Source: Desulfobacteraceae bacterium (GTDB lineage: Bacteria > Desulfobacterota > Desulfobacteria > Desulfobacterales > SURF-7). Taken from it: a stretch of 64,000 nt of DNA. This document shows positions 9,678 to 41,671 of the stretch, in pieces. Under the pieces are notes generated by a model, which had not been told where the DNA came from, made no database searches, and saw only the letters and a list, made by a program, of their open reading frames with translations. The stretch spans positions 62,001 through 126,000 of the forward strand of contig QZKS01000020.1 of NCBI GenBank assembly GCA_003599865.1. The letters run 5' to 3'. Positions within the stretch are counted from its first letter, which is position 1. The number at the start of each line of letters is the position of its first letter. The position numbers were made by a program, and so were the translations under genes.

Positions 9678-9709
9678 TTTTCCTGCTCATATTTCATTAT
9701 GAAGTTGAC

Positions 9710-10369
9710 CTATATTCCCGAATGGCGGACGATCTCTCCTTCAATCAGATAGATCACTTCTTCGGCGACATTGGTCGCATGATCCGCCAGCCGCTCCAGA
9801 TGCCTTGAAACCAGCAGAAGATTGATCAGATAACCATGGCTGTCCGATGTACCGCTCGCCATGGCCGCCTTGATTTCATCATATGCCTGTTTCTGAATCC
9901 GGTCCACGTCATCATCCATGACCAGAACGCGGAAGGCCAGATCCAGATCCAGATTCACCAGTGCATCCAGACTTTTTTTCAGCATCTCCTGGGCTTTTTT
10001 GGCCATATCCGAGTAGTCAAACACAAAGCTGTACTTCTTCTGTTTTGCGATGATGGCCACCCGCTGGGCAATATTCACGGCCTGATCACCGATACTTTCC
10101 AGCTCACTGTTGATTTTGATCACGGCGATCAGGAATCGCAGATCCACCGCAACCGGCTGATACAGTGCCAGAATCTTCAGACATTCCTCTTCAATGTCGA
10201 CTTCCATCTGGTCTACTTCATGATCCAGATCAACTACTGTTTTTGCCAGTTCCGCATCCCTTGTCTTGACGGCTTCGACAGCCAGACGCACACGGTCTTC
10301 CACCATCGCCCCCAGGGTTAAAATGGATTTTTTAATTTTTAAAAGCTCTTTCTGAAAATGTATTGCCAT
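9710..10369 (-). CDS. phoU: Phosphate transport regulator PhoU
   Basis: All-helical negative regulator that links the Pst transporter to PhoR. The 219-residue protein consists of two PhoU repeats; each carries the metal-cluster type motif, for example ESIGDQAVNIAQR near 95 and ERLADHATNVAEE near 196. I start at the ATG at 10369, preceded by AAGGAA six bases upstream. The open frame begins at a TTG at 10393 inside the end of pstB, which is less likely. It is encoded between pstB and phoB in the operon. Confidence 0.94.
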   Translation of the reverse strand: MAIHFQKELLKIKKSILTLGAMVEDRVRLAVEAVKTRDAELAKTVVDLDHEVDQMEVDIEEECLKILALYQPVAVDLRFLIAVIKINSELESIGDQAVNIAQRVAIIAKQKKYSFVFDYSDMAKKAQEMLKKSLDALVNLDLDLAFRVLVMDDDVDRIQKQAYDEIKAAMASGTSDSHGYLINLLLVSRHLERLADHATNVAEEVIYLIEGEIVRHSGI

Positions 10370-10385
10370 ATTTTTTTCCTTATGG

Positions 10386-11147
10386 TCATCCAAAACGGCC
10401 GGTTATATAATCTTCCGTGGTCTTCAGCCGGGGTCTGGTAAAAATGGTGTCGGTTTCTCCGACCTCGATCAGCTTCCCCATGTAAAAAAAGGCGGTCACA
10501 TCCGATACCCGGGCAGCCTGCTGCATATTGTGGGTAACGATAATAATCGTATACTTGTCTTTTAATTCGTGAATCAGTTCTTCGATCTTCTGCGTGGCGA
10601 TCGGGTCCAGGGCCGAACAGGGTTCGTCCATGAGAAGAACCTCCGGTTCGACCGCCAGGGCACGGGCAATGCACAGCCGCTGCTGCTGGCCGCCGGACAG
10701 TCCCAGCGCGGAATCATGAAGCCGGTCCTTGACCTCATCCCAGAGTGCCCCTGATCTTAGACTCTTTTCAACCCGCTGGGCAATCAGATTCTTGTCTTTC
10801 ACTCCATTTACTTTCAGGCCGTAGGCAACGTTTTCAAATATGGTTTTGGGAAAGGGATTGGGTTTTTGAAACACCATCCCGATCCGGCTCCTGAGGTTCA
10901 CGACATCCACAGACGGCGCATAGATGTCATCTCCATCGATACAGACTTCGCCATCCACACGGATACCGGGAATCAGATCATTCATCCGGTTCAGGCAGCG
11001 AAGAAATGTACTCTTCCCGCATCCGGACGGGCCGATCAGAGCGGTTGCCTGGTTGCGCCTGAAATCGAGAGAGATCTCCTGCAGGGCTTTGAAACTGCCA
11101 TAATAAAAATCCAGCTTTTTGGACGTAATTTTGTACTCTTGTTCCAT
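10386..11147 (-). CDS. pstB: Phosphate ABC transporter ATP-binding protein PstB
   Basis: Cytoplasmic ATPase of the high-affinity phosphate importer. The 253 residues show Walker A GPSGCGKS near 39, the Q-loop at [11 protein letters not shown] near 92, the PstB-typical signature LSGGQQQR near 150, Walker B VLLMDEP near 170, and the switch His in VTHNM near 203. It lies downstream of pstA with a 30-base gap. The pairing with PstC and PstA encoded directly upstream leaves little doubt about substrate. Confidence 0.96.
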
Positions 11148-25483: not shown

Positions 25484-26353
25484 TCAAAAGGAAAGGATGG
25501 TCAGCCGATCCACAAAAATCAAGGTGAGAATGAAACCCATGGTATAGTTCAAGCCGATGAACAGATGGGAATATTTTTTTAGATCGTCTTTTAATAACAA
25601 AAAATAGGTGAAGGCGGCTGCCATGGAAAATAGACCGGCCGCCAGAAACCAATGCGCCCACGGGTGGATCAGAACGTGGACCACAGGCAGCAGAAATGCC
25701 AGGCAGGCAAAACCGAAGATCCAGACCAGGAGTATCCTTTTTAATTGTGAACCGCTCAGCTGATGCAACATGTTTGGAACATCGGATTCCCGATATTCCT
25801 TTTGATTGTTTAAAATAAGCAGCCAGAAATGCGGCAGTTGCCAGAGTCCCCATATGCCCATGAGAACAATGATCTGCGGGGAGGCGATAGGGCCGCCGGC
25901 GGCAACCCAGCCGATGAGAGGAGGGATCATTCCGCAGAACATGCCGGGAATCATTGCCAGATTGGTTCTCTTTTTCAGCGGTGTATACAGCCCGTTATAA
26001 CAAAGCACCGCTATCATACCCGTGAACCAGGCCCAATGCGAGGACCGGCTGAGGTAGATGACGGCAAGGCCGAGAAACATCAGACAAGCGGAAAAAAAAA
26101 GGACCCGGGGTGGTGAAATCAGATTTCTGGGCAGGGGCCTGTTGCTTGTTCGGGAGAAATGACGGTCTACAAACCGGTCCTGATAATGGTTCATGGCCCC
26201 GGCACCGCAAGCCAGGAAAAAAACACCAAAGCTTAATTCCATGGCATTGATATCCAGTGTATTGGAGTAGATCATATACCCGATAAGCGATGAAACAGCG
26301 GCCGACAGGCTGATCCGAATTTTCACCAGTTGAAGCCACCGGAATCCCTTCAT
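25484..26353 (-). CDS. ctaB: Heme O synthase (protoheme IX farnesyltransferase)
   Basis: A membrane prenyltransferase that adds a farnesyl group to heme b to give heme O. In 289 residues with about nine hydrophobic segments, the UbiA-type motif NHYQDRFVDRHF (about 61-72) carries the two Asp groups that bind Mg-diphosphate, followed by TSNRPLP. A second acidic motif lies later. The start at 26353 has AGGAGG close upstream and overlaps the end of the subunit II gene. No heme A synthase (ctaA) gene is visible in the window. Confidence 0.92.
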   Translation of the reverse strand: MKGFRWLQLVKIRISLSAAVSSLIGYMIYSNTLDINAMELSFGVFFLACGAGAMNHYQDRFVDRHFSRTSNRPLPRNLISPPRVLFFSACLMFLGLAVIYLSRSSHWAWFTGMIAVLCYNGLYTPLKKRTNLAMIPGMFCGMIPPLIGWVAAGGPIASPQIIVLMGIWGLWQLPHFWLLILNNQKEYRESDVPNMLHQLSGSQLKRILLVWIFGFACLAFLLPVVHVLIHPWAHWFLAAGLFSMAAAFTYFLLLKDDLKKYSHLFIGLNYTMGFILTLIFVDRLTILSF

Positions 26354-26375
26354 ACTCCTCCTGAGCCGTATCCCG

Positions 26376-26984
26376 CTACTCCTCTTCGATTTCCAGCCAC
26401 TCCTCATATTCCGGCTCCGGAACCACTCGCAGGGTGGCAGTCATATCCGCATGGCCGACTCCGCAGAATTCGGCGCATTGCATGTAATATGATCCCGGTT
26501 TATCCGGCAGAAACCAGGCATAGGTTTTCATGCCGGGAACGGCATCAACTTTGATGCGATAGGCAGGGATGAACAAACTGTGCAGTACATCGGAAGATGT
26601 AATATTGAGTTTTACCGGTTTGCCCAAAGGCACGACCAGTTCGTTTTCCGTCTCTTTGTCATTGGGATACAGGAAGATCCAGGAGTACATCTGCCCGGTC
26701 ACTTCTATCTCAAGAGCCCCGGCAGGAACGTTTCTCAGGCCGGTGTAGGATGACCAGCCATAATAAAACATGGACAAGGCAATAATCGATGGGATAACGG
26801 TCCACAGAACCTCAAGCTTCCAGTTGTCCCGGATGTCGGAAGGCAAAGGGTTTCTGCTGCGGCTGTATTTGAACACAAAGACGATCATGACAATGGTAAT
26901 GCCCAGCAGCAGTACCACTGAAAATCCTAAAATGTATAAGAAAGCCTGATCAACTCCGGGCACTGGATTGATGACTGCATTCAT
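26376..26984 (-). CDS. ctaC: Heme-copper oxidase subunit II with CuA site
   Basis: Accepts electrons from cytochrome c and passes them to subunit I. The 202 residues have two membrane helices (about 15-38 and 58-77) and a periplasmic cupredoxin domain. The CuA ligands are all visible: His135, then Cys170, Glu172, Cys174, His178 and Met181 in CAEFCGVGHADM. There is no signal peptide with lipobox and no C-terminal cytochrome c domain, so this is not a caa3-type fusion. It follows subunit IV in the operon. Confidence 0.93.
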   Translation of the reverse strand: MNAVINPVPGVDQAFLYILGFSVVLLLGITIVMIVFVFKYSRSRNPLPSDIRDNWKLEVLWTVIPSIIALSMFYYGWSSYTGLRNVPAGALEIEVTGQMYSWIFLYPNDKETENELVVPLGKPVKLNITSSDVLHSLFIPAYRIKVDAVPGMKTYAWFLPDKPGSYYMQCAEFCGVGHADMTATLRVVPEPEYEEWLEIEEE

Positions 26985-26991
26985 ATTTTCC

Positions 26992-27279
26992 TCACCGGAA
27001 AGAGATGTCCCAGAATATAAAACCGATTAAGATCGCCAGACTACCAATCGTTACGACAAATGTGATTTGCAGCAACCTGGTTTCATAACGAAGGTGCATG
27101 AAAAAAAGCAGTACAAAACCCGCCTTGCAGGCGGCAATCAGTATGGCAGCCCAGATGTTCAAAACCCCGAGATCGATTCGCGATACGCCGATCGTAATTG
27201 CGGTAAGCGCTAACAGGATGCACAACACGCCGAATAGTGTTGTGTAGCTCAGTATATGTTCCTGGTTGGGCGATTCCAT
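26992..27279 (-). CDS. ctaF: Heme-copper oxidase subunit IV
   Basis: A small subunit of 95 residues with three membrane helices and the family-typical FVLLFFMHLRYE segment near 54-65. It stabilises the catalytic core of the oxidase. It is encoded between subunits III and II. The start has TCAGGAGT-type spacing upstream. Confidence 0.88.
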   Translation of the reverse strand: MESPNQEHILSYTTLFGVLCILLALTAITIGVSRIDLGVLNIWAAILIAACKAGFVLLFFMHLRYETRLLQITFVVTIGSLAILIGFIFWDISFR

Positions 27280-27314
27280 ACTTTACTCCTGACAGAAATG
27301 TTCATTCATCCGCA

Positions 27315-27914
27315 TCACAGGATCAGATAAAACAAAGGAAAAATGAAGATCCAGATCAGATCCACCAGATGCCAATACAGTCCGGAATTTTCGAGTACAA
27401 CAAATTGGGTTTCATGAATCCGCTTTGTCGTGATGAAATACAGACTGATCGATAACAGTATTAAACCGATAATAATGTGTATGCCGTGAAGCCCTGTGAT
27501 CAGATAGTACAAGCCGAAAAAAAGACTCTTTCCCGCCTCTGCATCCGACAAGTCCGGTGACCCGGGATAGATACCGGCCTCAAATTTATGCCCCCACTCA
27601 AAATATTTATTCACCAGAAACAGGACACCGAAAACCATCGAAACCCCGACCAGTGCGGCTGCCGACCGGCGAGCCTTTTTTTGAATGGCCGTAATGGCTG
27701 ATGCAACCGTAAAACTGCTCACCAGCAGAATCATGGTATTCAGGGCACCGATCGTAATATCCAGTGATTTGCCGGCTTCGATAAACACACTGGTATATTT
27801 GCTGTAATAAGCGGCATACAGGACAAACAGGCCGCCGAACAACATGATTTCCGTATACAGGAACAACCACATGCCCAGCTTAACGCCTGCTTTGTCCGGA
27901 GTGCTGCTATTCAT
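27315..27914 (-). CDS. ctaE: Heme-copper oxidase subunit III
   Basis: A 199-residue membrane protein with five helices, the short bacterial form. Recognisable segments are KLGMWLFLYTEIMLFGGLF (about 12-30) and LHGIHIIIGL near 146, with the conserved lipid-contacting residues and a terminal WHLVDLIWIFIFPLFYL. It supports sustained turnover of subunit I. It starts 7 bases after the end of the subunit I gene. Confidence 0.93.
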   Translation of the reverse strand: MNSSTPDKAGVKLGMWLFLYTEIMLFGGLFVLYAAYYSKYTSVFIEAGKSLDITIGALNTMILLVSSFTVASAITAIQKKARRSAAALVGVSMVFGVLFLVNKYFEWGHKFEAGIYPGSPDLSDAEAGKSLFFGLYYLITGLHGIHIIIGLILLSISLYFITTKRIHETQFVVLENSGLYWHLVDLIWIFIFPLFYLIL

Positions 27915-27921
27915 TGGATGG

Positions 27922-29553
27922 TCAAACCTTTTTTGAACCTGCCTGCTGTTTCATAATATCGGTAAAATCGTATGGGTATGATTTCACACGGGGTGTATCC
28001 AAAAAATTATGCAGGGGAGGAGGAGACGGAACACTCCACTCCAGCGTGGTTCCACCCCAGGGATCGCCGACTGCCGGTTCTCCTTTTCGCAAACCCTGCA
28101 CCAGATTAACCAGCATCAACATGATCCCGGCGACCATGATGAAACCTCCGATTCCGGCAAAAAAATTACCGGCTTCAAACTGAGGAAGATAGTTATAATA
28201 ACGCCGGGGCATGCCCTGCAATCCGAGGATCAGCATGGGCATATAATGAACAATAAAACCAATGGTGATTAAAATTGCCGCTCGATATGCTTTTCGAAAA
28301 TTATACATCCGACCGAATATTTTCGGCCACCAGAAATGAAGGGCGGCGAAAAAGGCAAACCCGGCGCCTCCGAACATCACAAAATGAAAATGCCCGACCA
28401 CAAAATGGGTGTCATGCACATGGATATTGGTACCGGCAGCGCCAAGCACCAGCCCGGTCAAGCCGCCCACGGAAAACAGATAGATAAAGCACAAGGCGTA
28501 AAACAGCGGCGGGGTCATGAGGACCGAACCCTTGTACATGGTTGACACCCAGCTGAACACCTTGACTGCGCTGGGAATTGCCACTACAAATGTCAGCAGT
28601 GAAAACACAAAAACAGCGGTATCACTCATGCCGCTGGTAAACATATGATGAGCCCACACCAGGGAACCTGCAATGGCGATGGCCAGGGTGGAATAGACAA
28701 TCGCCTTATAACCGAAAATGGCTTTCCGGGAAAAAACCGGCATGATTTCGGAGATCACTCCCATGGCCGGCAGAACCATGATATATACGGCCGGATGAGA
28801 ATACATCCAGAAAAGATGCTGATAGAGTATGGGATCACCGCCCCGGCCCGGATCAAACAGCCCGATTCCGAATATCCGTTCCGCCACGATAATCAGGAGG
28901 GTGATCGCCAGGATCGGAGTTGCCAGCAGCTGCACCCATGCGGTTGCGTACAAGGACCATGTAAACAGCGGCATCTGCATCCAGCCCATGGTTTTCATCC
29001 GAAGCCGATGGATGGTTGTAATAAAATTGATGCCCGTGAGCATGGAAGACATGCCCAGAATAAACGCGGCAAGCACCGTGAATGTCACACCGCTTTCCGT
29101 CTGGACGCTGAACGGCACATAAAATGTCCAGCCCGTGTCCGGCGGACCGCCGGAAAATAAGGAAACAACCGCCAGGATACCGCCGAATATATACAGATAC
29201 CAGGAAAGCAGGTTTAATCTGGGAAAAAATACATCATCCGAACCAATTTGTATCGGCAGTAAAAAATTGCCGAATATCGCCGGTATGCCCGGAATGATGA
29301 ACAAAAAAATCATGATCACCCCATGCAGGGTAAACACGGCATTATAGGTTTGCGAACCCATCAGCGTCTCACCCTCGGCCATCAGTTCCGTTCGAATCAC
29401 CAGCCCCAGGGTAACGGCAATACAGAACCAGAAAAGAATCGAAATCATATACAGGACACCGATCCGTTTATGATCCGTCGTCAGAAGCCAGACCCATATC
29501 CCCTTCAGGTTGGGAGAAGATGGTGTTTTCAGATAGGATGGAACATCCGTCAT
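27922..29553 (-). CDS. ctaD: Heme-copper oxidase subunit I, A2-type
   Basis: The catalytic subunit that reduces oxygen and pumps protons. In 543 residues with twelve or more helices: His77 and His390 for the low-spin heme; His253, His302 and His303 for CuB; the cross-link Tyr257; and His388 for the high-spin heme (HDTHFVVGHFHFVMFGG). The motif reads YSHPAVY (251-257), lacking the Glu of GHPEVY. That YS signature marks A2-type oxygen reductases. The start codon overlaps the end of the SCO gene by four bases. Confidence 0.95.
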   Translation of the reverse strand: MTDVPSYLKTPSSPNLKGIWVWLLTTDHKRIGVLYMISILFWFCIAVTLGLVIRTELMAEGETLMGSQTYNAVFTLHGVIMIFLFIIPGIPAIFGNFLLPIQIGSDDVFFPRLNLLSWYLYIFGGILAVVSLFSGGPPDTGWTFYVPFSVQTESGVTFTVLAAFILGMSSMLTGINFITTIHRLRMKTMGWMQMPLFTWSLYATAWVQLLATPILAITLLIIVAERIFGIGLFDPGRGGDPILYQHLFWMYSHPAVYIMVLPAMGVISEIMPVFSRKAIFGYKAIVYSTLAIAIAGSLVWAHHMFTSGMSDTAVFVFSLLTFVVAIPSAVKVFSWVSTMYKGSVLMTPPLFYALCFIYLFSVGGLTGLVLGAAGTNIHVHDTHFVVGHFHFVMFGGAGFAFFAALHFWWPKIFGRMYNFRKAYRAAILITIGFIVHYMPMLILGLQGMPRRYYNYLPQFEAGNFFAGIGGFIMVAGIMLMLVNLVQGLRKGEPAVGDPWGGTTLEWSVPSPPPLHNFLDTPRVKSYPYDFTDIMKQQAGSKKV

Positions 29554-30461
29554 GGGTGATTCCCTTTTTTCACTTCTTCACTGTGCGTTTTTGACCGGTT
29601 GCCTTTCCGGAGAAGAAAAAACAGAAAGATGCCTGACAGCAGAAGAATCGAAATCGCAGCAACCCGGAAAGATTTAAACACATAGGATTTGCTTTCCGCA
29701 TCATAATCAAAGCAGTAACTCAGGATTCTTCGGACCGACATATGAGGCGTTCCGGCCGCTGCCTCGGTCAGCGCCATTCCCAGATCAAAAGGCAGGAACC
29801 GCAGACCGTAGAGATACCGGATGATCCGGCCGTCCGGTGATACTGCCAGAAGGACGTTGGGATGAATGAACATACCGGGTCCGGTTTTTTGCAGCCGGTA
29901 CCCCATCGACGCCAGCAACGCATCGATCTCCTTTTGACCTCCGGTCAGGAACCGCCAGTTCTCTTGCGGGAAATCCCTGGTAATCAGCTTGAAGTAGTTT
30001 GCTTTTGCTTCCCGTGCCTTTTCCGGCGTATCTTCGGCATCAAAACTGACGGCCAGTACCTGATAATCCCGACCCGGCTCAAGCGGGACATCATTAACGG
30101 CCTGGGCCAGACTTGCCAGCATCATGTTGCATGCCTGAGGACAGGAAAAGTATACCGGCAGAATCAGACTCGGTTTGGATATTGCCTCCTGCAAGCTGAC
30201 CGATTGCCCATTTTCATCCATAAAACGGATGTCCTGCCGGATCCGTTCCCCGAGCCGCTCCTCGACTCCGATTTTCGGTGGCAAACCAGAGGCCTCTTGT
30301 CCGGATGGATGTTGATGCTGATTTTCGGATTCATGGGAAAAGTGAAGGTCACCTCCCATTGGATGATCGGAATGGGAACCATCTTCCGCCGCAACCGCAA
30401 CACCGAATGAAATAAGCAATACGAGACCGGCGAAAAGACAGCAGGCTGCTTCTTTTTTCAT
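29550..30461 (-). CDS. SCO1/SenC-family copper chaperone
   Basis: A membrane-anchored thioredoxin-fold protein that delivers copper to the CuA site of oxidases. In 303 residues: a signal sequence or anchor (about 5-26), a His-rich segment (about 30-60, with HSDHPMGGDLHFSH), the copper-binding CPQAC near 115 and His in FIHPN near 200, and an extra C-terminal membrane helix (about 265-285). The start at 30461 follows GGAG at 9 bases; an alternative ATG at 30488 overlaps the upstream stop. It directly precedes subunit I. Confidence 0.9.
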   Translation of the reverse strand: MKKEAACCLFAGLVLLISFGVAVAAEDGSHSDHPMGGDLHFSHESENQHQHPSGQEASGLPPKIGVEERLGERIRQDIRFMDENGQSVSLQEAISKPSLILPVYFSCPQACNMMLASLAQAVNDVPLEPGRDYQVLAVSFDAEDTPEKAREAKANYFKLITRDFPQENWRFLTGGQKEIDALLASMGYRLQKTGPGMFIHPNVLLAVSPDGRIIRYLYGLRFLPFDLGMALTEAAAGTPHMSVRRILSYCFDYDAESKSYVFKSFRVAAISILLLSGIFLFFLLRKGNRSKTHSEEVKKGNHP

Positions 30462-30487
30462 GTTCCGAAACTCCGATTTCCGTTGCA

Positions 30488-31036
30488 TTACTTGATCTTT
30501 GTGAATTTGCCGGTTTTCAGAAAAACCTTTAATACGGTCTTGAACTCATGTTTGGTTCGAAAACTGTCCCGGCCGGGACCATAGGCAAGCAATACGGTGG
30601 TTTCCGCATCCGGATCAATTACCTGATCTTTGGTATCGCCTGAATTCAATGGGATGGTAAAAGCAATCTCCGTAACCTCTTTTTGCTCACTGCCCGTGAC
30701 ATCGGTGGCATTGTCGTTGCCGCCTGCTTTTTCATCCGCATCGTGCTGACGATTGCTGATGCCGACATGATCCGTTACCTTGGCCTTCCCGTTTTTGACA
30801 TAACCGATGATAAAATTCGCATCTTTCATTTCCTTGCTGGGATTAAAACCAACTCCCACCCACCCCGTGGTCCCGGCAGTCAGTCTGATATTCATCACTT
30901 TATCATCGAGCTTCCATTCAAAGGACATCTTGTCAACTTCAATTTTATGGTCATAATTCGCAGGACCTCCGATACATACACCGGTATTCAGAAATATCGT
31001 GAAAACAAGCGCCATATATACCAATATCTTGTTCAT
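30488..31036 (-). CDS. DOMON-domain exported protein
   Basis: The 182-residue protein has a signal peptide (about 1-23) and a DOMON-type beta domain with TTGWVGVGFNPSKEMKDAN (about 57-75) and a YVKNGKAKVTDH strand. DOMON domains bind heme or sugars and often pass electrons. It is the first gene before SCO and the oxidase subunits, so a redox or heme role linked to the oxidase is plausible. The next gene's frame touches its stop. Confidence 0.8.
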   Translation of the reverse strand: MNKILVYMALVFTIFLNTGVCIGGPANYDHKIEVDKMSFEWKLDDKVMNIRLTAGTTGWVGVGFNPSKEMKDANFIIGYVKNGKAKVTDHVGISNRQHDADEKAGGNDNATDVTGSEQKEVTEIAFTIPLNSGDTKDQVIDPDAETTVLLAYGPGRDSFRTKHEFKTVLKVFLKTGKFTKIK

Positions 31037-33342: not shown

Positions 33343-33990
33343 TCACGGATCGAGTCGGGAAAATGCATATGCAACAAATCTTCCATCATGGCTGAGACTG
33401 ATGCTGATCATGCTTTTTTCTCCCTTGATATAGACTTCCGGCGGTCCGGGTTGATTCCGGATGGGTTCCCGCCTGATTTGAACTTCGGAAACCGGAACAT
33501 TGGCATGGGCTGCAATTCGTTTGCCGGCCAGTTCTCTGACCAGAAAGGATTCCTGTTCCGGCAGGATACAATCGATTTCATGATCAGCGCCGATCTGGTA
33601 AATGCCGGTTTCAATGTCATAAAAATCTTGCGTCAATCCGGTAATCCCCAGGCCGTGTACAAAATCTTTTTCGATGACGACCTGTACTTGTACGGGTTTT
33701 TCAGGAGTTGTCACCCGTCCTTGAACAACGGAAGGAAATTCAATGACGCCAAAGGATGCCTCATATTTTCTTGGGGAAGAGGAAACTTCGGGAAAGCTTT
33801 TGGATATTGCCTTGTAGGCACTTTCCTTGGCGGCCCAGAATATCCAGAGGCAGATATCGGGAAAGGCGGAAGAGCGAACTTGTTCCTGTTCGGCCGGAGT
33901 GAATACACGATCTGCAAATCGGATGTCATCCCATCTGGCTATCGCATCCGGATGACAGAGATCAACAATGTCGTTTCCGATATTCCGCAA
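33343..33990 (-). CDS. 4'-phosphopantetheinyl transferase
   Basis: Would attach the phosphopantetheine arm from CoA to the Ser of an acyl carrier protein. The 215 residues have the superfamily motifs NDIVDL (5-10) with a metal-binding Asp and WAAKESAYKAISK (about 51-63). It is longer than AcpS and resembles Sfp-type or fungal-like enzymes in having two lobes. It overlaps the acyltransferase gene by 29 bases and is the last gene of the fatty-acid operon, so the ACP at 34724 is its probable substrate. Confidence 0.88.
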   Translation of the reverse strand: MRNIGNDIVDLCHPDAIARWDDIRFADRVFTPAEQEQVRSSAFPDICLWIFWAAKESAYKAISKSFPEVSSSPRKYEASFGVIEFPSVVQGRVTTPEKPVQVQVVIEKDFVHGLGITGLTQDFYDIETGIYQIGADHEIDCILPEQESFLVRELAGKRIAAHANVPVSEVQIRREPIRNQPGPPEVYIKGEKSMISISLSHDGRFVAYAFSRLDP

Positions 33991-34711
33991 AATACGCTTT
34001 TTCCATTCCGGAAAGTTGACGAATAATCTGCCCGGCCATATCCCGCTGGGCCTTCAGGCCTTTCAGGTTTGTGACCGGATGCAGTATTCCGGTTCTTATG
34101 GTAAACACTTCCCTGTATCCCGGTATGAAACCGTATGACTTCTGATGATCCCCCCGGGCATACATACAAAGCACGTTGCATTCGGGGACGGAAGCCATCA
34201 GCCGTCCGACTCCGTAGGGAAAATCCCGGGTACAGATCCGGCCGGACCGGGATCGGGTCCCTTCCGGAAAAATCATCAGGCTCTGTTTTTTCTCCAATAC
34301 GGTAATGCATTTTTTCAAGGTGGCGCTGACACCCTCCCGTTGCCCGCCGCGGTTGACGGGAATGCATTTCAACGCATAGCAAATCAGGCGGCCTGCCGCA
34401 TTGCGATGGAAATTATCTTTTTCCGGTACATTCCATGGTATACGGTCAAACCGGAAAACCGCCTGATACAGGGGCATCATGGCATATGCCAGAATCAGGG
34501 AGTCTATCATCGTCAGGTGATTTGCACAGATCAGCCAGGGGCCCCTGTGTTGCTTGAAATATTTTCTACACGTCTTTCGGGTCTTCTCCAGATCCCGGAT
34601 ACGGTATCCGGCAATTTTGATAAAACAGAATGCCATGGGGGCGAGAATGAATATCAGAACCCGCCCGACCATGGTCTGAATCACCAGTTTCCGGTCATCG
34701 GAAATCTGCAT
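33962..34711 (-). CDS. PlsC-like lysophospholipid acyltransferase
   Basis: Membrane-associated acyltransferase of 249 residues. The catalytic NHLTMID (about 63-69) follows a hydrophobic N-terminal segment, and the substrate motif FPEGTRSRSG lies near 150. It would move an acyl chain, plausibly from the operon's ACP, to a lysophospholipid or other acceptor. It starts 12 bases after the ACP gene and overlaps the phosphopantetheinyl transferase gene. Confidence 0.88.
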   Translation of the reverse strand: MQISDDRKLVIQTMVGRVLIFILAPMAFCFIKIAGYRIRDLEKTRKTCRKYFKQHRGPWLICANHLTMIDSLILAYAMMPLYQAVFRFDRIPWNVPEKDNFHRNAAGRLICYALKCIPVNRGGQREGVSATLKKCITVLEKKQSLMIFPEGTRSRSGRICTRDFPYGVGRLMASVPECNVLCMYARGDHQKSYGFIPGYREVFTIRTGILHPVTNLKGLKAQRDMAGQIIRQLSGMEKAYFAEYRKRHC

Positions 34712-34723
34712 ACCAAACCTTTT

Positions 34724-34978
34724 TTATGCGGCTCTTTTCAGACTCAGAACCACATCGACCGCATCCCCCAGCGTCTTGATCCGGTCTGCATCATCATCAT
34801 TGATCTCGATATGGAACACATCTTCCGACTTGATGATAATATCCACCAGCCTTGCCGAATTCACGCGAAGGTCATTGATGATATTCGTATGATTCGTAAC
34901 ATGCTTCAACAGTTCCGGGTCCCTTACATACTCTTTGATGATGGCAACCATTTCATGGAATACTTCTTCTCTGTTCAT
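34724..34978 (-). CDS. Acyl carrier protein with variant Ser motif
   Basis: An acidic four-helix carrier of 84 residues. The canonical DSL around the phosphopantetheine Ser reads NSA here (DLRVNSARLVDI, about 35-46). The following helix (DVFHIEINDDDADRI) matches ACPs. The Ser is kept, so loading is still possible, but the substitutions on both sides should alter which enzymes dock. It lies between the ketosynthase and acyltransferase genes. Confidence 0.85.
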   Translation of the reverse strand: MNREEVFHEMVAIIKEYVRDPELLKHVTNHTNIINDLRVNSARLVDIIIKSEDVFHIEINDDDADRIKTLGDAVDVVLSLKRAA

Positions 34979-34999
34979 TTTTTCTCTCCTATGTTTTTT

Positions 35000-36277
35000 T
35001 TATTGGGTGTCCCACTTTCTCAGAATCAGACAACTGTTCACATCGCCAAATCCGAAACTGGCCTTGGCCATGGTTTTCAGTTCCGGATAGCTCATACCGA
35101 CCTGCACGACATGATCGGAAAAGGCTTCAATCTCCGGATGCAAATCCTCACAATTCAGGGAAGGATGTAAAAACCCCCTGGATAATTGAATCAGGGCGGC
35201 AATGGTTTCAATGGCTCCGGCAGCCCCAAGACAGTGCCCGATCATGGACTTTGTGGAATTGATATAGGGAAAACAGCCGGGACCTCTTCCCAGGGCCTTT
35301 GACCAGTTTTGAATTTCGTGGGGATCGGCATATGTCGCTGTCAGATGCCCATTAATGGCATCAATTTCATCCGGAGATAGATCTGCATCGGCAATCGTAT
35401 CGGCAATACAGCGCCGAACGCCTTCCGGATTGGGTGCGGTCATGGATCCGCCTCCTCTTTGCCCCCCGCAGTTCACCCGTCCCCCGATAATCTCCGCATA
35501 AATTCCTGCCTTCCTGTTGAGCGCCGTCTCCAGTTCTTCCAGCACAAGCACGCCCGCTCCGGCTCCGGGGACAAATCCGGCCGCTGACGCGCTCATGGGC
35601 CTGGAACCCTTTTGCGGCCGGTCGTTGAACTTTCGGGATAGAACACGCATGGCGTCAAAACCGGCCCACGTATAGGGGGACGCGCCTTCCGCACCGCCGG
35701 CAATCATTCGTTTGGCCAGTCCGGAACGAATTCTCCAGAACGCCTCCACAATCGCCTCAGTTCCGGTGCTGCATGCGGAAGAGTTGGAGGTTACCTGATT
35801 GCCCAGGCCAAGAAGACCGGCAATCCGGGCACTCATGCCGCTTCCCATCACCTGCTCGACAATTCGGGAGCCAAGCTTTCGAACCTTGCCGCTGTTGACT
35901 ACCGGGACGATGGTTGTCGCAATCAGTTCCATATCCCCGATTCCGCATCCGACAATGGCCCCGGTTTCCCAGTCGGCAGAAGATTCATCGGAAGGCAAAT
36001 GCAAGCCCGCATCCTTCCAGGCATCCAGTGCTGCAACAGAAGCATATCCGATCGCACCATTCATCCGGGATATCTGGTTTTCCGGAAAATACCGGCGGCC
36101 GATTTCCTCAAAATCTTTTGGGACTCCAGCGATGCAGCATGCAAAGTTCAGTTCCTGAAGCGCCGGGATCAAGCGGATTCCGGATTGGCCATGCTTGAGC
36201 GCCTGATGAAAGGATTCAATTCCATGAGCATTCGGGCTGACGACGCCCATGCCTGTCACCACAACTCTAGTTTCCAT
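35000..36277 (-). CDS. Beta-ketoacyl-ACP synthase, FabF-like
   Basis: Condenses acyl groups with malonyl-ACP to extend the chain. The 425 residues carry the Cys-His-His triad: Cys169 in SSACSTG, His311 in NGHLTAT (canonical NAHGTST) and His348 in STKSMIGHCLGAAG. The altered first His motif sets it apart from housekeeping FabF. Its start overlaps the FabZ-like gene by 11 bases. Confidence 0.9.
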   Translation of the reverse strand: METRVVVTGMGVVSPNAHGIESFHQALKHGQSGIRLIPALQELNFACCIAGVPKDFEEIGRRYFPENQISRMNGAIGYASVAALDAWKDAGLHLPSDESSADWETGAIVGCGIGDMELIATTIVPVVNSGKVRKLGSRIVEQVMGSGMSARIAGLLGLGNQVTSNSSACSTGTEAIVEAFWRIRSGLAKRMIAGGAEGASPYTWAGFDAMRVLSRKFNDRPQKGSRPMSASAAGFVPGAGAGVLVLEELETALNRKAGIYAEIIGGRVNCGGQRGGGSMTAPNPEGVRRCIADTIADADLSPDEIDAINGHLTATYADPHEIQNWSKALGRGPGCFPYINSTKSMIGHCLGAAGAIETIAALIQLSRGFLHPSLNCEDLHPEIEAFSDHVVQVGMSYPELKTMAKASFGFGDVNSCLILRKWDTQ

Positions 36278-36755
36278 TGATATTTACTCCTGCACCGGAC
36301 AAGATGGCTGTACAAACATCCCGGCCATTTTCACGTTTCATGACTACTCTTGTCTTCAGATTTTTTCTGCGAAAATATACCATCTCCCCCTGGATATGAA
36401 CCGTCTCTCCCGGGAACACCATTCCACTGAACTCCACATTCTCGGCGAACGTAAACAGTGTTGTCATATTTTGAATTTCCTCCGGAGATCTGCCCTGAAA
36501 AAGAAGGCGGGAAATTCCCAGGCCGACCACACCGGTTTGCGCCATTGCTTCGATGAGAATCACGCCCGGTGTTATCGGCTTTTCCGGGAAATGGCCGGAA
36601 TAGAAAAATTCATTCTCCCGAAACCGATAAACGCCTGTAATGGACTGATGATCGGCATCCAGAACGGCATCGATAAACCGAAAAGGAGGCCTGTGGGGTA
36701 TCAGCGACAGTATCTGCCGATTCAGGTTTTGATCAGCCACAATACATGCCTCCAT
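36267..36755 (-). CDS. 3-hydroxyacyl-ACP dehydratase, FabZ-like
   Basis: Hot-dog fold dehydratase of 162 residues. LIPHRPPFRFID (about 18-29) and the active-site GHFPEKPITPGVILIEAMAQ (about 54-73), with catalytic His and Glu, match FabZ. It removes water from 3-hydroxyacyl-ACP. It overlaps the ketoreductase gene upstream by 23 bases and the ketosynthase gene downstream. Confidence 0.9.
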   Translation of the reverse strand: MEACIVADQNLNRQILSLIPHRPPFRFIDAVLDADHQSITGVYRFRENEFFYSGHFPEKPITPGVILIEAMAQTGVVGLGISRLLFQGRSPEEIQNMTTLFTFAENVEFSGMVFPGETVHIQGEMVYFRRKNLKTRVVMKRENGRDVCTAILSGAGVNINGN

Positions 36756-37500
36756 TCACGTGAATCACGCTTCCCGTGATATACGTACCGCTCCCGGCAA
36801 GAAAGGAAACCACATCTGCCACTTCTTCCGGTTTCCCCATCCGGCCCAACGGCACCTGCCGGACGATCTGCTGCCGGATCTCTTCGGAAAGATCTTTGGT
36901 CATATCGGTTTCAATAAAACCGGGAGACACCGAATTCACCAGGATGTTTCGTCCCCAAAGTTCCTTGGACAGGGATCGGGTCATCGCGTCCATCCCCGCC
37001 TTTTCCATGGTATAGGGAATCTGGCCTGCATTGCCGGTATGCCCGACCACGCTTGAGATATTGATGATCCTGCCCGATGACGTTTTGATCATAAAAACAC
37101 GGAGCACTCTTTTGGTAAGATACCATACCCCGCGAAGAACCGACCGCTGTGAATCAAAGGAATCCATTTTCATCCGGACCATGGGCTCGTTGATGCACAT
37201 CCCGGCATTGTTCACCAGCACATCCACACGGCCCGCCTTCTCCTGAATTACACCGACCATTCTTTCCACCTGGTCGATATCGTTCATATCCGCCTGCAAT
37301 AAACATCCGTTTCCATGGATTTCGGAAAGAACCTGATGAGCGGATTCCCGGCTGTTCCGGAAATGAATCCCGACATAAAAACCGTTTTGGGACAAGGCGC
37401 GGCTGCATGCCGCACCAATGCCGGTCCCGCCTCCGGTTATGATCGCAACCGGCCTGTCCTGACTATTCAAATGTTTTCTGTTTCCGTTGCTGCTGATCAT
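36733..37500 (-). CDS. 3-oxoacyl-ACP reductase, FabG-like
   Basis: Short-chain dehydrogenase of 255 residues that would reduce the 3-keto group. The nucleotide motif GGGTGIGAA lies near 22-30, NNAG near 97, catalytic Ser in NISSVVG near 147 and the YxxxK pair in YTMEKAG near 162. The ending GSVIHVNGGMYCG is typical of FabG. Its ATG overlaps the stop of the FabA-like gene (ATGA). Confidence 0.9.
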   Translation of the reverse strand: MISSNGNRKHLNSQDRPVAIITGGGTGIGAACSRALSQNGFYVGIHFRNSRESAHQVLSEIHGNGCLLQADMNDIDQVERMVGVIQEKAGRVDVLVNNAGMCINEPMVRMKMDSFDSQRSVLRGVWYLTKRVLRVFMIKTSSGRIINISSVVGHTGNAGQIPYTMEKAGMDAMTRSLSKELWGRNILVNSVSPGFIETDMTKDLSEEIRQQIVRQVPLGRMGKPEEVADVVSFLAGSGTYITGSVIHVNGGMYCG

Positions 37501-38099
37501 ACGACCTTCTTTTCCCTATTCATTCCTCCCGTCGAGTGGGGTGACGGCTCCGGATAATCCGGATAGGTGATCTCCTGAAAAACCCCTACACGGGCGCTGC
37601 GGACATCCGCAATCGGTTCATCATCCACAAAGACTTTTCCATCTGCGACGGCAAGGCTTGTCCCGGTTTTTTTCAATTCCTGAAATCGGGTGACCATCAA
37701 CTCGAATCGGACAACCTTGTTGTATGGACGAATCTGACCCTGAAACCGAATCTCATTGCTTCCCAAGGCCCTTCCGGCGCCGGTTGCCCCCCGCCATACA
37801 CAATAGAAACCCAGCAGCTGCCAGATGGCATCCACACAAAGGCAGCCGGGCTGAACCGGATCTCCGGGAAAATGACACTGGAAATACCAGGCATCCAGCC
37901 GGATGTCCTGCTCGGCGGCAATCCATCCCCGGCTGCCATCCCTGGTAATGGAAAGGATGCGGTCCAGCATTAAAAAAGGCGGTGCCGGCAGACGCGCCTC
38001 AAAATGCAGGGGCGGATCTTCCACCAGACGTCCATAGGCAAACGCAATTAAATGATGCAGATCAAACCGGTTCCGATTTTTAAAACAATCATATTTCAT
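37497..38099 (-). CDS. FabA-like 3-hydroxyacyl-ACP dehydratase
   Basis: A 200-residue hot-dog enzyme. The motif CHFPGDPVQPGCLCVDAIWQ (about 78-97) closely follows FabA, including catalytic His and Asp, and is preceded by PAPPFLMLDRI. FabA-type enzymes dehydrate and can also isomerise the double bond to cis-3, a route to unsaturated chains. I start at the ATG at 38099, overlapping the upstream stop by four bases with GGAGGAGA before it. The operon therefore encodes two dehydratases. Confidence 0.87.
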   Translation of the reverse strand: MKYDCFKNRNRFDLHHLIAFAYGRLVEDPPLHFEARLPAPPFLMLDRILSITRDGSRGWIAAEQDIRLDAWYFQCHFPGDPVQPGCLCVDAIWQLLGFYCVWRGATGAGRALGSNEIRFQGQIRPYNKVVRFELMVTRFQELKKTGTSLAVADGKVFVDDEPIADVRSARVGVFQEITYPDYPEPSPHSTGGMNREKKVV

Positions 38100-38911
38100 C
38101 CGATACTCTCTCCTCCGTCCACACATATCAGCGAACCGTTCACCCACGAGGCTTCATCCAGGCATAACAGAAAAATAACATCCGCCACATCTTCCGGCAC
38201 GGTCAGCCGGCGGAAAGGGTTTCGTTCCATTGCATGACTTCTGATTTTCTGATTTCCGGGTATGACCTGCAAGGCCGGTGTATCGCAGACTCCTGCCTGA
38301 ATCACGTTGGACCGGATTCCATAGGGCGAAAACTCCACGGCAATGGCGCGGGATACGGACTCCAGAACCGCCTTTGCAGCAGAAACCGCGGCATATCCCT
38401 TCCAGGCAATCTTGTTTCCTTCGCTTGTCAGACTGAGAACGCGGGCATCATGCGCAAATAAGCCAAGCCGATGGATATCCTGGACCCATTCGACAATATT
38501 GGATCCCATGGCCTGAATCGTTCTGGAAAAATCCTCCTTATCCAGGAAGTGCTGATTGTTGTAAGTTCCCTCTGAATCGTCGAACGGTGCGAGAAGTTTT
38601 AAATTTCCGAACGCCACGGAATGCAGCATCATCCTGATTTTTCCATCGGTCCCCAATCTCTCCTTCATCACATCCAGAACGCTTTTGCGTCCTTCTGTGG
38701 AAAGTGCATCCGTGTTCATGGCAACCAGCTGGACGCCTGCCGAACGAATCCTCTCAAACAACGGCTCAATTCTCTGCATGGCACCTCTTCGATCCCGATG
38801 GACAATACAGATATTCATGCCGTGACGGGCCAGCTTCCGTGCCGTCGCCAAACCGAATCCGCTTGAACCGCCGATGATCAGTGCCCAGTAGTTTGTGTCA
38901 AATCGTATCAT
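38096..38911 (-). CDS. Enoyl-ACP reductase-like short-chain dehydrogenase
   Basis: Would reduce the enoyl-ACP to finish each cycle. The 271-residue protein has GGSSGFGLATA near 14-24, the segment HSVAFGN near 105 and the spacing Y-x6-K (GYAAVSAAK, near 173), which is typical of enoyl-ACP reductases (FabI/FabL) rather than the YxxxK of FabG. The ATG at 38911 overlaps the fabD end by 14 bases. The longer frame to 39067 lies inside fabD and is rejected. Confidence 0.82.
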   Translation of the reverse strand: MIRFDTNYWALIIGGSSGFGLATARKLARHGMNICIVHRDRRGAMQRIEPLFERIRSAGVQLVAMNTDALSTEGRKSVLDVMKERLGTDGKIRMMLHSVAFGNLKLLAPFDDSEGTYNNQHFLDKEDFSRTIQAMGSNIVEWVQDIHRLGLFAHDARVLSLTSEGNKIAWKGYAAVSAAKAVLESVSRAIAVEFSPYGIRSNVIQAGVCDTPALQVIPGNQKIRSHAMERNPFRRLTVPEDVADVIFLLCLDEASWVNGSLICVDGGESIG

Positions 38912-39860
38912 CTGATTTCCTGTTCTGAAATTCCCGCATCGCGCCGGAAAAGGTAGTGATCGAAGAACACGTTGCGCCAATGCTTTGAAAAAAATTCCGG
39001 AGAGGGCGGCCGGGTCCGATCTCATAAATGCAGGAGGCCTTTTGGGAGAGCAGACGCATATTTTCATTCCATTTTACGGTATTGCTGAGCTGTTCCAACA
39101 GGTTGTTCAGGATATCGCGGCAGCTTCCGTCATGAAAGGAACCGGTAAAATTGGATGCCACCCTTACGGCTCTTTCCGGAGAAATTGTATCCGCTACCCG
39201 ATTCAAGACTTCCTCAAACAGCATCGTGATTCCGCGCATGAAACGGCTGTGAAAGGGTGCACTGACCTGTAACGGAACGAACCGTATGGCATCCGGGGAA
39301 GACACCGATTCTCTGATTCTTCTGACGGCCGTATCCATACTGCCTGCACGGCCGCTGATGACAATCTGCTGTAAAGAATTGAGATTCGCGATATCAATCG
39401 GCAGATCATCCAGCGCCTTACGGACAGAATGGATTGGTATGTTCTCCCCGATGACGGCGGTCATGCTTCCGGATCCCAGGGGAGATGCTTTCTGCATCAG
39501 CTTTCCTCTTTCCTGAACGACCTGTAAAGCATCCCGGTATGACAGGGCGCCGGCCGCCGTCAGAGCAGTATATTCGCCCAGGCTGTGCCCTCCGTAAAAT
39601 GACGGTTCCATCTGAAATTCCTGTTGAATTGTTCGATACATGGCGATTTCGGTTGCCAGGATGCAGGGCTGTGCGTATTCCGTTAAATGTAATTTTTCAT
39701 TTTTCATAAAGCACATGGCCGGCACATCCCATCCCAGAACATCGGATGCTTCTTCATAGGTACTTCGGGCGATCGGGGAACCATCATGGAAATCTTTTCC
39801 CATTCCTGCACGCTGCGAACCCTGGCCCGGAAATACGACTGCAATTTTTTCTCCACTCAT
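38898..39860 (-). CDS. fabD: Malonyl-CoA:ACP transacylase
   Basis: Loads malonyl units on the acyl carrier protein. The 320 residues have VVFPGQGSQRAGMG at 8-21, the catalytic Ser93 in GHSLGEYTAL, and the His near 199 in SAPFHSRFM. It is the first gene of the nine-gene operon. The start at 39860 is chosen because the reading frame then begins directly at the family N-terminus; GAGGAGAAGAACAGGAT precedes it. The possible sigma-54 promoter lies about 130 bases upstream. Confidence 0.92.
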   Translation of the reverse strand: MSGEKIAVVFPGQGSQRAGMGKDFHDGSPIARSTYEEASDVLGWDVPAMCFMKNEKLHLTEYAQPCILATEIAMYRTIQQEFQMEPSFYGGHSLGEYTALTAAGALSYRDALQVVQERGKLMQKASPLGSGSMTAVIGENIPIHSVRKALDDLPIDIANLNSLQQIVISGRAGSMDTAVRRIRESVSSPDAIRFVPLQVSAPFHSRFMRGITMLFEEVLNRVADTISPERAVRVASNFTGSFHDGSCRDILNNLLEQLSNTVKWNENMRLLSQKASCIYEIGPGRPLRNFFQSIGATCSSITTFSGAMREFQNRKSDDTI

Positions 39861-39988: not shown

Positions 39989-40004
39989 ATCAAGATACAT
40001 GCCG
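39989..40004 (-). promoter_or_regulatory. Candidate sigma-54 promoter of the fatty-acid operon
   Basis: Leftward it reads CGGCATG-TATC-TTGAT. The -24 part agrees with GGCAYR; the -12 part has TTG but GA instead of GC. It lies about 130 bases before the fabD start and about 118 bases from the centre of the palindrome at 40110-40132, the usual distance between a sigma-54 promoter and its activator site. Confidence 0.45.
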
Positions 40005-40109: not shown

Positions 40110-40132
40110 GAATGTACATGAAATGTACATTC
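40110..40132. promoter_or_regulatory. Perfect 10-bp palindrome, likely activator binding site
   Basis: GAATGTACAT and ATGTACATTC flank a GAA spacer. The repeat lies about 31 bases before the start of the divergent sigma-54 activator gene and upstream of the fabD promoter, so one site could serve both activation of the operon and autoregulation. Confidence 0.6.
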
Positions 40133-40162: not shown

Positions 40163-41671
40163 ATGCCTGAACAGAAAAGACTCAACAGTGAAGACCGCGA
40201 ATTTTTCATCACCGTCAAAACAGCATCCCTCAGCAATCCTTTCAGTGAAAAACGGATCGTGCTGGATCAGACCATTTCCGGAACCGGCTCCCATCAGATC
40301 GATGAAACCGTGAATGCCGTAGAGCAGCGAATCGAAATACTGGAAAAAAATCAACAGATAGACCTGAAATCCCTTTCTGATCCGGATCAGAATCTGATCG
40401 AAGCCGCCCACCTTTTTATCTTCTTTTACCGGTTTCGAAAAAAATTCGACCGGTTTATCGAAGAACAACTGACAGCAGAAGACAAGACCTTTCTGGCTCC
40501 CTTTACAGGAGACGGGGTTTCCGTCCCCTTTGCCGGAGAAGGAATCTCGTTTCTTCAAAAAAGAGGATTCAAAACAGAAAGCATCCAGAAGGCCTTTGAG
40601 GAAAGCTACCAGCTGCGGCGGGCCTTTTTCTTCATCGACCGGAACCTGATCGGCAGAAGTCCTGCCATGAAAAAACTCCGGTATGATTTATGGAACAATA
40701 TCTTCACCCACGATATCGATCTGTATCGCCGGTATTTATGGAACAAGATGGAAGACTTCTCCACACTCATTCTCGGGAAAACCGGAACCGGAAAAGGGGC
40801 AGCCGCAGCAGCCATCGGCCGATCCGGATTCATTCCTTTTGACATGAAAAAGCAGCGATTTGTTCATAATTTTACCAAGTCTTTTATCTCCATCAATCTT
40901 TCCCAGTTTCCGGAAACCCTGATTGAATCGGAACTCTTCGGCCATAAAAAGGGCTCATTTACCGGTGCCACGGAAAATCACAAGGGTGTATTTGAAAGAT
41001 GCAGTCCGCTCGGGTCCATCCTGCTGGATGAGATCGGAGAGGTCTCCCTTCCGATCCAGATCAAACTGCTTCAGGTTCTCCAGGAAAGGATTTTCTACCC
41101 GGTAGGAAGCCATAAGGCGGAAAAATTCAACGGCAGGGTGATTGCCGCAACCAACCGGTCCGTTGCGGAGCTGAGAAAAAACAAAACTTTCCGGGATGAC
41201 TTTTATTACCGGCTCTGCTCGGACATTATCATGATTCCTTCCTTGCAGCAGAGAATTCAGGAAGATCCCAAAGAGCTTGACGATCTTCTGGATCTGATCA
41301 TTGAGCGCACTGTCGGAGAACAATCAAAGGAACTGGCCGGCATGGTCCGGTCCGTCATCGATAAACGGCTGGGTATGGATTACCCCTGGCCGGGAAATGT
41401 CCGGGAGCTGGAACAGTGTGTCAGGAGGGTTCTCTTAAAAAAAGAATATTGCGGTGACCATCTGCCCGATTCACCGGATTTGAATAGTCGTCTGATCCAG
41501 GGGATTGAACAGGGAGATATCTCGGCCCAGAACCTTCTCTCCGGATATTGCAAGATTCTGTATAACCGCTACGGCACCTTTGAGGAGGTTTCCAGAAGAA
41601 CAAGGCTGGACCGGAGAACGGTCAATAAATATATCCGGGAATGGAGTGAAGACACGCAGGAAGACGATTAG
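40163..41671 (+). CDS. Sigma-54 activator with unusual N-terminal domain
   Basis: An AAA+ enhancer-binding protein of 502 residues. The N-terminal 180 residues are helical and not a recognised receiver, GAF or PAS domain. The AAA+ core has Walker A GKTGTGKG (205-212; its last residue is Gly), the sigma-54 loop GSFTGA (264-269), Walker B SILLDEIGE (about 286) and a sensor region. The C-terminal helix-turn-helix is TFEEVSRRTRLDRRTVNKYI. It diverges from the fatty-acid operon and probably controls it. The ATG at 40163 is preferred; the frame opens at 40112 inside the palindrome. Confidence 0.87.
   Translation: MPEQKRLNSEDREFFITVKTASLSNPFSEKRIVLDQTISGTGSHQIDETVNAVEQRIEILEKNQQIDLKSLSDPDQNLIEAAHLFIFFYRFRKKFDRFIEEQLTAEDKTFLAPFTGDGVSVPFAGEGISFLQKRGFKTESIQKAFEESYQLRRAFFFIDRNLIGRSPAMKKLRYDLWNNIFTHDIDLYRRYLWNKMEDFSTLILGKTGTGKGAAAAAIGRSGFIPFDMKKQRFVHNFTKSFISINLSQFPETLIESELFGHKKGSFTGATENHKGVFERCSPLGSILLDEIGEVSLPIQIKLLQVLQERIFYPVGSHKAEKFNGRVIAATNRSVAELRKNKTFRDDFYYRLCSDIIMIPSLQQRIQEDPKELDDLLDLIIERTVGEQSKELAGMVRSVIDKRLGMDYPWPGNVRELEQCVRRVLLKKEYCGDHLPDSPDLNSRLIQGIEQGDISAQNLLSGYCKILYNRYGTFEEVSRRTRLDRRTVNKYIREWSEDTQEDD

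Follow-up and report, generated by a model that had tools for sequence, protein, structure and literature searches.

Gene content and organisation of the operon

We analysed a 64,000-nucleotide stretch of DNA (the window), which spans positions 62001–126000 of contig C1 in the 5.0-Mb draft genome of a Desulfobacteraceae bacterium of sulfate-reducer type (GCA_003599865.1; 100 contigs, 97% complete). The window carries an operon for a putative secondary type II fatty-acid synthase (FAS). In what follows, the labels C, L and G denote contigs of this genome, related loci and compared genomes, respectively. Nine open reading frames (ORFs) of 84–425 aa, each encoding a separate protein, occupy 33343–39860 on the minus strand. 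A preliminary description of the sequence had reported nine leftward genes here; all of the ORFs were found at that place and strand, and their families were matched as follows.

38898..39860, minus strand: malonyl-CoA:acyl carrier protein transacylase (MAT, or FabD); TIGR00128 262.6 bits, cut-off 260.9
38096..38911, minus strand: enoyl reductase (ENR) of the short-chain dehydrogenase/reductase (SDR) type, FabL/FabI-like; best PDB match of its profile B. subtilis FabL (3oic); Tyr173-X6-Lys180
37497..38099, minus strand: FabA-type dehydratase/isomerase; NF003509 193.7 bits, cut-off 124; His/Asp pair
36733..37500, minus strand: FabG-type 3-ketoacyl reductase; TIGR01830 249 bits, under the cut-off of 297.75; Y-X3-K in the sequence
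36267..36755, minus strand: FabZ-type dehydratase; PF07977; NF000582 93 bits, under the cut-off of 113; His/Glu pair
35000..36277, minus strand: ketoacyl synthase (KAS) of a distinct clade; conserved Cys169, His311, Lys343 and His348; NGHLTAT and SFGFGDVN
34724..34978, minus strand: acyl carrier protein (ACP) with N-S-A replacing D-S-L; Ser41; best NCBIfam match 59.7 bits, under the cut-off of 70
33962..34711, minus strand: PlsC-like acyltransferase; PF01553; TIGR00530 under cut-off; HX4D and FPEGTRS in the sequence
33343..33990, minus strand: phosphopantetheinyl transferase (PPTase), AcpS-like N-terminal part plus a further part; PF01648 at residues 4–68

Against TIGR01749 the FabA scored 152.7 bits, under the cut-off of 238, and a Pfam search with the ACP gave no match at E 0.001. 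Together, the genes encode malonyl loading, condensation, keto reduction, two dehydratases, enoyl reduction, an ACP, a PPTase and one acyltransferase.

Neighbouring genes overlap at MAT/ENR (14 bases), FabA/FabG (4), FabG/FabZ (23), FabZ/KAS (11) and PlsC/PPTase (29), and gaps of 21 and 12 bases separate KAS from ACP and ACP from PlsC. The ENR/FabA overlap amounts to 52 bases if FabA starts at the GTG at 38147, which opens the ORF; the ATG at 38099, the more probable start, reduces it to 4 bases. With this ATG, six of the eight junctions overlap by 4–29 bases each, as the preliminary description had stated for most neighbours. The grouping of these genes goes beyond chance, because the identical gene order recurs in other genomes.

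The carrier protein and the phosphopantetheinyl transferase

The ACP differs from housekeeping FAS II carriers in that the D-S-L mark at the phosphopantetheine serine is absent. The N, S and A columns around this serine were invariant in all 63 aligned rows, and the stricter text pattern [VI]NSA was present in 61 of 62 locus rows. Five ACP-like segments, drawn without a motif filter from eight further stretches of the own genome, invariably read D-S-[LIM]. The D-S-L motif of ACPs is described as conserved in a passage of PMC7178038. Passages of PMC12391972 report that some ACPs are activated poorly or never by AcpS and Sfp, with a D-S-T motif as one cause; N-S-A is not mentioned in those passages.

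The structure model of the operon PPTase reached a mean predicted confidence (pLDDT) of 94.7, and its top PDB matches were PPTases (best E 2e-4). The model matched AcpS entries with a TMt of about 0.7, and its full-length fit to Sfp was poor (TM about 0.3). A PF01648 search of the genome found two PPTases, the operon's and one on C23, which we take to have an Sfp-like layout.

Conserved enzyme signatures across the family

Active-site residues were counted in those rows that cover 75% or more of the query. The Tyr/Lys pair of the ENR, at FabI/FabL spacing (Y-X6-K) and aligned to Y156/K163 of FabI, was kept in all 81 rows, which bears out the enoyl reductase of the preliminary description. The His/Asp pair of FabA was kept in 30 of 30 rows and the His/Glu pair of FabZ in 69 of 69; the operon FabA shares 44% identity with E. 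coli FabA across 146 aligned columns. PlsC retained HX4D in 23 of 23 rows and [FVI][PV]EG[TS]R in 14 of these. A Cys-His-Asn triad was found in all 17 rows of in-cluster KASIII and in all 40 rows of type III polyketide synthase (PKS), two enzymes of related loci that are introduced below. The roles of the FabA, FabI and PlsC motifs, and those of GxFTGA and the sigma54 consensus used further on, are presumed here.

The KAS carries the family's own motifs. By text search, 53 of 65 locus rows contain both NGHLTAT and SFGFGDVN, and 11 of the remaining 12 carry one motif or a near variant; the counterparts in E. coli FabF are NAHGTST and SFGFGGTN. A tree was built from 29 chosen operon loci and the window, E. 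coli FabB and FabF, and seven KAS of the own genome. The operon rows formed a single clade (SH-aLRT 100), outside of which lay the housekeeping FabF of the same genome. E. coli FabB was nearest to this clade at 85%, and the tree program issued a long-branch warning. Both the KAS and the ACP are far from the housekeeping ones, which speaks for the reading of the preliminary description.

With regard to the ENR, the window protein is without a stretch of ~40 residues (after LLAPF) that is present in three relatives; by length, the ENRs of L052 and the Bacteroidota loci are likewise short.

Architectures and distribution of the family

Genome contigs were scanned with the ENR alignment, and 80 loci were kept of 124 relatives: 41 of a form with type III PKS and 39 others (FabA tallied by eye). 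Phylum labels follow the record titles, and bins can be mislabelled. The identities of the type III PKS, methyltransferase, flavoprotein and KASIII were established by Pfam/NCBIfam on L117 (Bacteroidota), L058, L067 and L079.

The 41 Bacteroidota-type loci encode a flavoprotein, methyltransferase, type III PKS, ENR, FabZ, KAS, ACP and PPTase, in that order in 35. Of the other six, four run into contig ends, the genes of L094 are spaced more widely, and L097 is without the core downstream of ENR. A search for FabA in the 41 loci gave no match. The second form, [MAT]-ENR-[KASIII]-FabA-[FabG]-FabZ-KAS-ACP-PlsC-PPTase, is found in Desulfobacterota, KSB1, Myxococcota and Bdellovibrionota, and one Chlamydiae bin (L083) carries a rearranged version. 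Among the 39 loci without PKS, four (L090, L092, L095, L103) consist of ENR and FabG only; FabA is present in 30 and none is shown in L059, L066, L072, L074 and L084, of which L074 and L084 are cut by a contig end. PlsC occurs in 22 loci, all of them outside the group with type III PKS. Of the dedicated PPTase and acyltransferase singled out by the preliminary description, the PPTase accompanies the family and PlsC one form of it.

The window operon encodes no priming KASIII. An in-cluster KASIII lies beside ENR or FabA in 17 other loci, and a second type, K3b, just after PPTase in seven (for example L058 8587-11039 and L061 15802-16974); the K3b of L058 exceeded the cut-off of NF005703, with 575 bits. 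No K3b counterpart was found among the three PF08541 matches of the own genome. Given this result, a medium-chain-primed model, which would take its basis from a Pseudomonas homologue, was not adopted. In L058 there is, moreover, an additional KAS of the operon type, with 61% identity.

In the KAS tree, the Bacteroidota rows form one group and the Desulfobacterota-labelled rows need at least three changes on starred branches, which suggests that the operon has moved between lineages by lateral transfer. All Desulfobacterota-type carriers among the 80 loci are titled as metagenome-assembled genomes. The Bacteroidota form is found in named strains, for example Chitinophaga filiformis and Winogradskyella by record title; a passage of PMC7440613 gives T3PKS as 9% of flavobacterial clusters by antiSMASH.

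The occurrence of FabA was examined in 291 genomes of the class, an even draw from a larger group. FabA exceeded its cut-off in 28 of them (own genome included), and the next-best match dropped to 113 bits, within a 2536-aa frame. All 28 genes sit in this operon, 27 with ENR adjoining and one (L153) with FabG, FabZ and KAS on a cut contig. Therefore, in the sampled class genomes FabA comes only with the operon.

Other fatty-acid genes and probable sharing of the transacylase

FabF was identified on C31 (630 bits, cut-off 494) with an ACP gene adjoining, FabZ and FabH exceeded their cut-offs on C13 and C66, and a FabG on C42 exceeded one NCBIfam cut-off (NF004200). Three FabK-like proteins, on C2, C17 and C20, scored 241–242 bits, under the cut-off of 453. 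The best other match of the operon ENR within the genome was a FabG. Since FabF with ACP, FabZ and FabH lie elsewhere, the operon is not the only FAS of the genome; the preliminary description had named sole fab genes as a case that would refute its proposal, and this case does not apply.

A discrete FabD was taken as a frame of 280–470 aa with at least 200 bits, read by eye, larger frames being left out. By TIGR00128, the operon MAT is the only one in all four members of the genus; the own genome's two other matches sit within frames of 1216 and 2391 aa. ENR was present in eight of 59 genomes (own included). None of these eight carriers has a discrete FabD outside the operon, whereas 37 of the 51 non-carriers have one (Fisher p 1.4e-4; p = 0.003 with the four genus members counted once). 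This contrast includes four carriers that are at most 90% complete (G002, G003, G011 and, at 90%, G049). Fused or larger MAT frames over the cut-off occur in carriers G049 (767 aa, 353 bits) and G006 (3773 aa, 293 bits), and also in non-carriers such as G017, G022 and G043. As the operon MAT is the single discrete FabD and carriers have none elsewhere, the main FAS probably draws on it too.

MAT domains in frames of ~3,700–4,200 aa were seen in G006:C18, G019:C122, G020:C72, G031:C3, G037:C1, G028:C48, G025:C91 and G045:C9; these frames are possibly type I FAS/PKS. G019, G020, G037 and G045 had no discrete FabD at E 1e-30. The own genome also has other secondary systems. C85 carries a Pfa-type synthase, and on C34 (L032, 7319-14606) genes resembling FabZ, FabG, ACP and KAS immediately precede others resembling BioF and BioA (by eye), perhaps a dedicated pimeloyl route for biotin.

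Control region

The region upstream of MAT contains the following features.

40163..41671, plus strand: divergent activator of the sigma54-dependent type; PF00158; GSFTGA loop read from the sequence
40110..40132, no strand: perfect 10-bp inverted repeat with a 3-bp spacer (TGTACA-N5-TGTACA); likely candidate activator site
39989..40004, minus strand: -24/-12-like element CGGCATGTATCTTGAT; weak, three mismatches, no GC at -12

The activator, which the preliminary description of the operon had not included, probably starts at 40163, because five orthologues begin at its codon 18. Orthologues with 61–87% identity stand beside the operon in five loci. The structure model of the activator had a mean pLDDT of 62, too poor for a structure search.

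The palindrome lies between operon and activator and reads GAATGTACAT-TTC-ATGTACATTC on the operon strand. A similar full repeat was found in L052 and L084, and one TGTACA in L059, L061 and L072. The 5.0-Mb genome contains two TGTACA-N5-TGTACA sites and none of the reversed control; no fab gene was seen within 3 kb of the second site, on C11.

When the window was scanned for the sigma54 consensus with up to two mismatches, 35 matches were obtained against 32.8 expected, none of them upstream of MAT. A looser test, asking only for GG and one G, was chosen after this stricter scan had found nothing there. By this test, four of six loci carry, upstream of MAT, a -24/-12-like site with two mismatches or fewer, a count that 0 of 2000 shuffle sets reach; the window's own site has three mismatches and the best of L084 four. 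Together, the activator and the TGTACA palindrome suggest that expression of the operon would be switched.

Comparison with known systems

The operon resembles the E. coli FabA/FabB pathway in the FabA His/Asp pair and identity given above and in having MAT, ketoreductase, dehydratase, enoyl reductase and ACP. It differs from that pathway in its separate N-S-A ACP, its own PPTase and its PlsC, in a reductase that is FabL-like and not FabI, and in a KAS just 34–35% identical to FabB and FabF.

A second likeness is to the Pfa-type secondary-lipid synthases. According to passages of Shulse and Allen (2011, PMC3098273), these are dedicated FAS with a FabA-type dehydratase, enoyl reductase and PPTase, are scattered across phyla, and may feed a type III PKS, as in the Type P system of Azotobacter, where a dedicated FAS passes its chains to such an enzyme. 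The operon differs in consisting of dissociated type II proteins. Membership of the Pfa group itself was rejected, the nine separate ORFs not being a multidomain type I enzyme and the ENR being an SDR protein and not PfaD-type (NMO fold).

The Bacteroidota form resembles the Planctomycetota alkylresorcinol triad of methyltransferase, flavoprotein and type III PKS, which PMC10896814 gives for 58 of 96 cases and describes as a three-gene operon. The same triad is joined to the FAS core in Bacteroidota, unlike in Planctomycetota, and is absent from the window operon.

Aryl polyene, flexirubin and ladderane-type clusters share type II FAS-like genes and own ACPs with the operon. Aryl polyene and flexirubin clusters have a paired ketosynthase (KS) and chain-length factor and no enoyl reductase; the operon, with one KAS and an ENR, was not assigned to them. 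Across the three kinds, there are paired or many KS and, depending on the kind, radical SAM or ammonia-lyase genes (partly general background, partly from passages of PMC2649909 and of PMC9606717, which describes a flexirubin cluster); the operon has neither of these genes. Ladderane-type clusters carry radical SAM and phytoene-desaturase-like genes in the passages of PMC2649909, and membership was rejected as neither is among the nine operon proteins. A cluster of aryl-polyene- or ladderane-like kind was noted by eye on C42 (L031, 5788-15069), with two tandem KS genes, several small ACPs and two radical-SAM-like proteins (8376-9374 and 9409-10509); its FabG scored 308.6 bits against flexirubin FlxB (cut-off 340).

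The operon FAS is a variant within the known secondary-lipid synthases, and its family is little described. Literature searches for the operon and its Bacteroidota form found no describing paper, which is no proof that none exists; an apparent FabA match in PMC10553843 was an author's name.

Proposed function and alternatives

We propose, with a probability of roughly 0.55, that the operon encodes a secondary, laterally shared type II FAS which works on its own carrier protein and probably makes a cis-unsaturated chain that PlsC puts on a lysophospholipid. Both product and acceptor are what we infer from gene content. The operon PPTase would activate the N-S-A carrier, which the other PPTase of the genome would handle poorly. 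The first condensation would be borrowed from a KASIII elsewhere, the C66 FabH being a candidate, and the operon MAT would also load the housekeeping ACP. Chains would grow on the N-S-A carrier, with FabA diverting the trans-2-enoyl intermediate (classically C10) to cis-3, KAS extending the unsaturated chain and ENR serving the saturated rounds. The acyl group would then pass from ACP, by the action of PlsC, to sn-2 of a lysophospholipid. Binding of the sigma54-type activator to the TGTACA palindrome would turn the operon on under some condition.

This proposal is favoured because active-site residues are intact across the family rows examined, because N-S-A is fixed in 63 of 63 rows as opposed to D-S-[LIM] in the own genome's other ACP-like segments, and because the KAS clade stands apart from the own FabF and gene order is kept over several phyla. 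It is further favoured by the confinement of all 28 class FabA genes to the operon and of PlsC to 22 loci without PKS, by the activator, palindrome and -24/-12-like element, by the separate housekeeping genes and, by analogy, by the dedicated FAS of Azotobacter. The preliminary description is supported in part, and two of its statements need changing. The operon is only partly "self-contained": it has a nearly complete set with own ACP and PPTase, but this does not extend to priming, in view of the missing KASIII, or to the probably shared MAT. Full or partial saturation had been read from the enoyl reductase; FabA points to a cis-unsaturated chain rather than to saturation alone.

Several observations weigh against the proposal. 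The operon MAT, as the genome's only discrete FabD, counts against a fully separate pathway. L059, L066 and L072 are without FabA with the ENR-to-FabZ stretch fully read, so the family does not always yield cis-unsaturated chains; residues alone would not reveal the isomerase activity of FabA, and the Pfa-type synthase on C85 could itself supply unsaturated chains. The KAS scored below the curated FabB and FabF cut-offs (PRK07967 250 of 630 bits; TIGR03150 305 of 494). With regard to control, the activator is not general: of the 15 loci that have MAT and over 2 kb of upstream sequence, five carry it beside the operon; none of the six -24/-12-like sites shows the GC that is customary at -12, and the window, L052 and L084 are close relatives among those six loci.

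It is unlikely that the product is a polyunsaturated or very long chain, with the operon acting as the dissociated equivalent of a Pfa synthase. The operon's list of activities (KS, MAT, ACP, ketoreductase, FabA-type dehydratase, enoyl reductase, PPTase) is that of a Pfa set, and the GFGDVN change falls in a loop that we take to gate the KAS acyl pocket. Nevertheless, there is one KAS with no chain-length-factor partner, the enoyl reductase is of the SDR type and not PfaD-type, there is one FabA, and C85 already carries a Pfa-type synthase.

Rather improbable is that the operon acts as the main membrane FAS, replacing a decaying housekeeping set. The FabD pattern in the genus and among the 59 genomes would fit, as would a FabG being the best other match of the ENR. 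The housekeeping genes over their cut-offs (FabF with ACP, FabH, FabZ, FabG) and the three FabK-like proteins argue otherwise, as does the patchy spread of ENR (8/59 genomes) and FabA (28/291), and a housekeeping pathway under sigma54-type control would be unusual.

Equally doubtful is that the chain goes to something else than lysophosphatidate, for instance an amino-acid lipid, with PlsC of the OlsA type: members of the PlsC family presumably differ in acceptor and the pairing of the Bacteroidota core with type III PKS indicates that the terminal enzyme changes within the family, but no other head-group gene was recognised in the operon and the NCBIfam match of PlsC, though below cut-off, is to the 1-acylglycerol-3-phosphate acyltransferase family.

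Extending the proposal of a secondary FAS to the family as a whole, we tentatively suggest, at somewhat less than even odds, a widespread parallel type II FAS whose N-S-A recognition code is matched by its own PPTase, KAS and ENR, so that the acyl pool would be insulated against primary metabolism. The module would have moved between Desulfobacterota, KSB1, Myxococcota, Bdellovibrionota and Bacteroidota, and been plugged into PlsC (usually with FabA) for membrane lipids or into type III PKS (without FabA) for phenolic lipids. How one cell separates two fatty-acid pathways is an active question for research on lipids and polyketides. A carrier motif that is both altered and fixed, together with its own activating enzyme, provides a direct test of pathway separation and would offer an orthogonal FAS for engineering; as the Bacteroidota form is found in named strains, the idea is testable now. 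As the sole home of FabA over cut-off in the sampled class genomes, the operon also bears on the unsaturated membranes of anaerobes.

Neighbouring genes

Elsewhere in the window, a heme-copper oxidase cluster was observed on the minus strand at 25484-31036 (COX I, II and III-like, SCO1-like and UbiA-like; named by eye), in a genome that otherwise resembles anaerobic Desulfobacterota.

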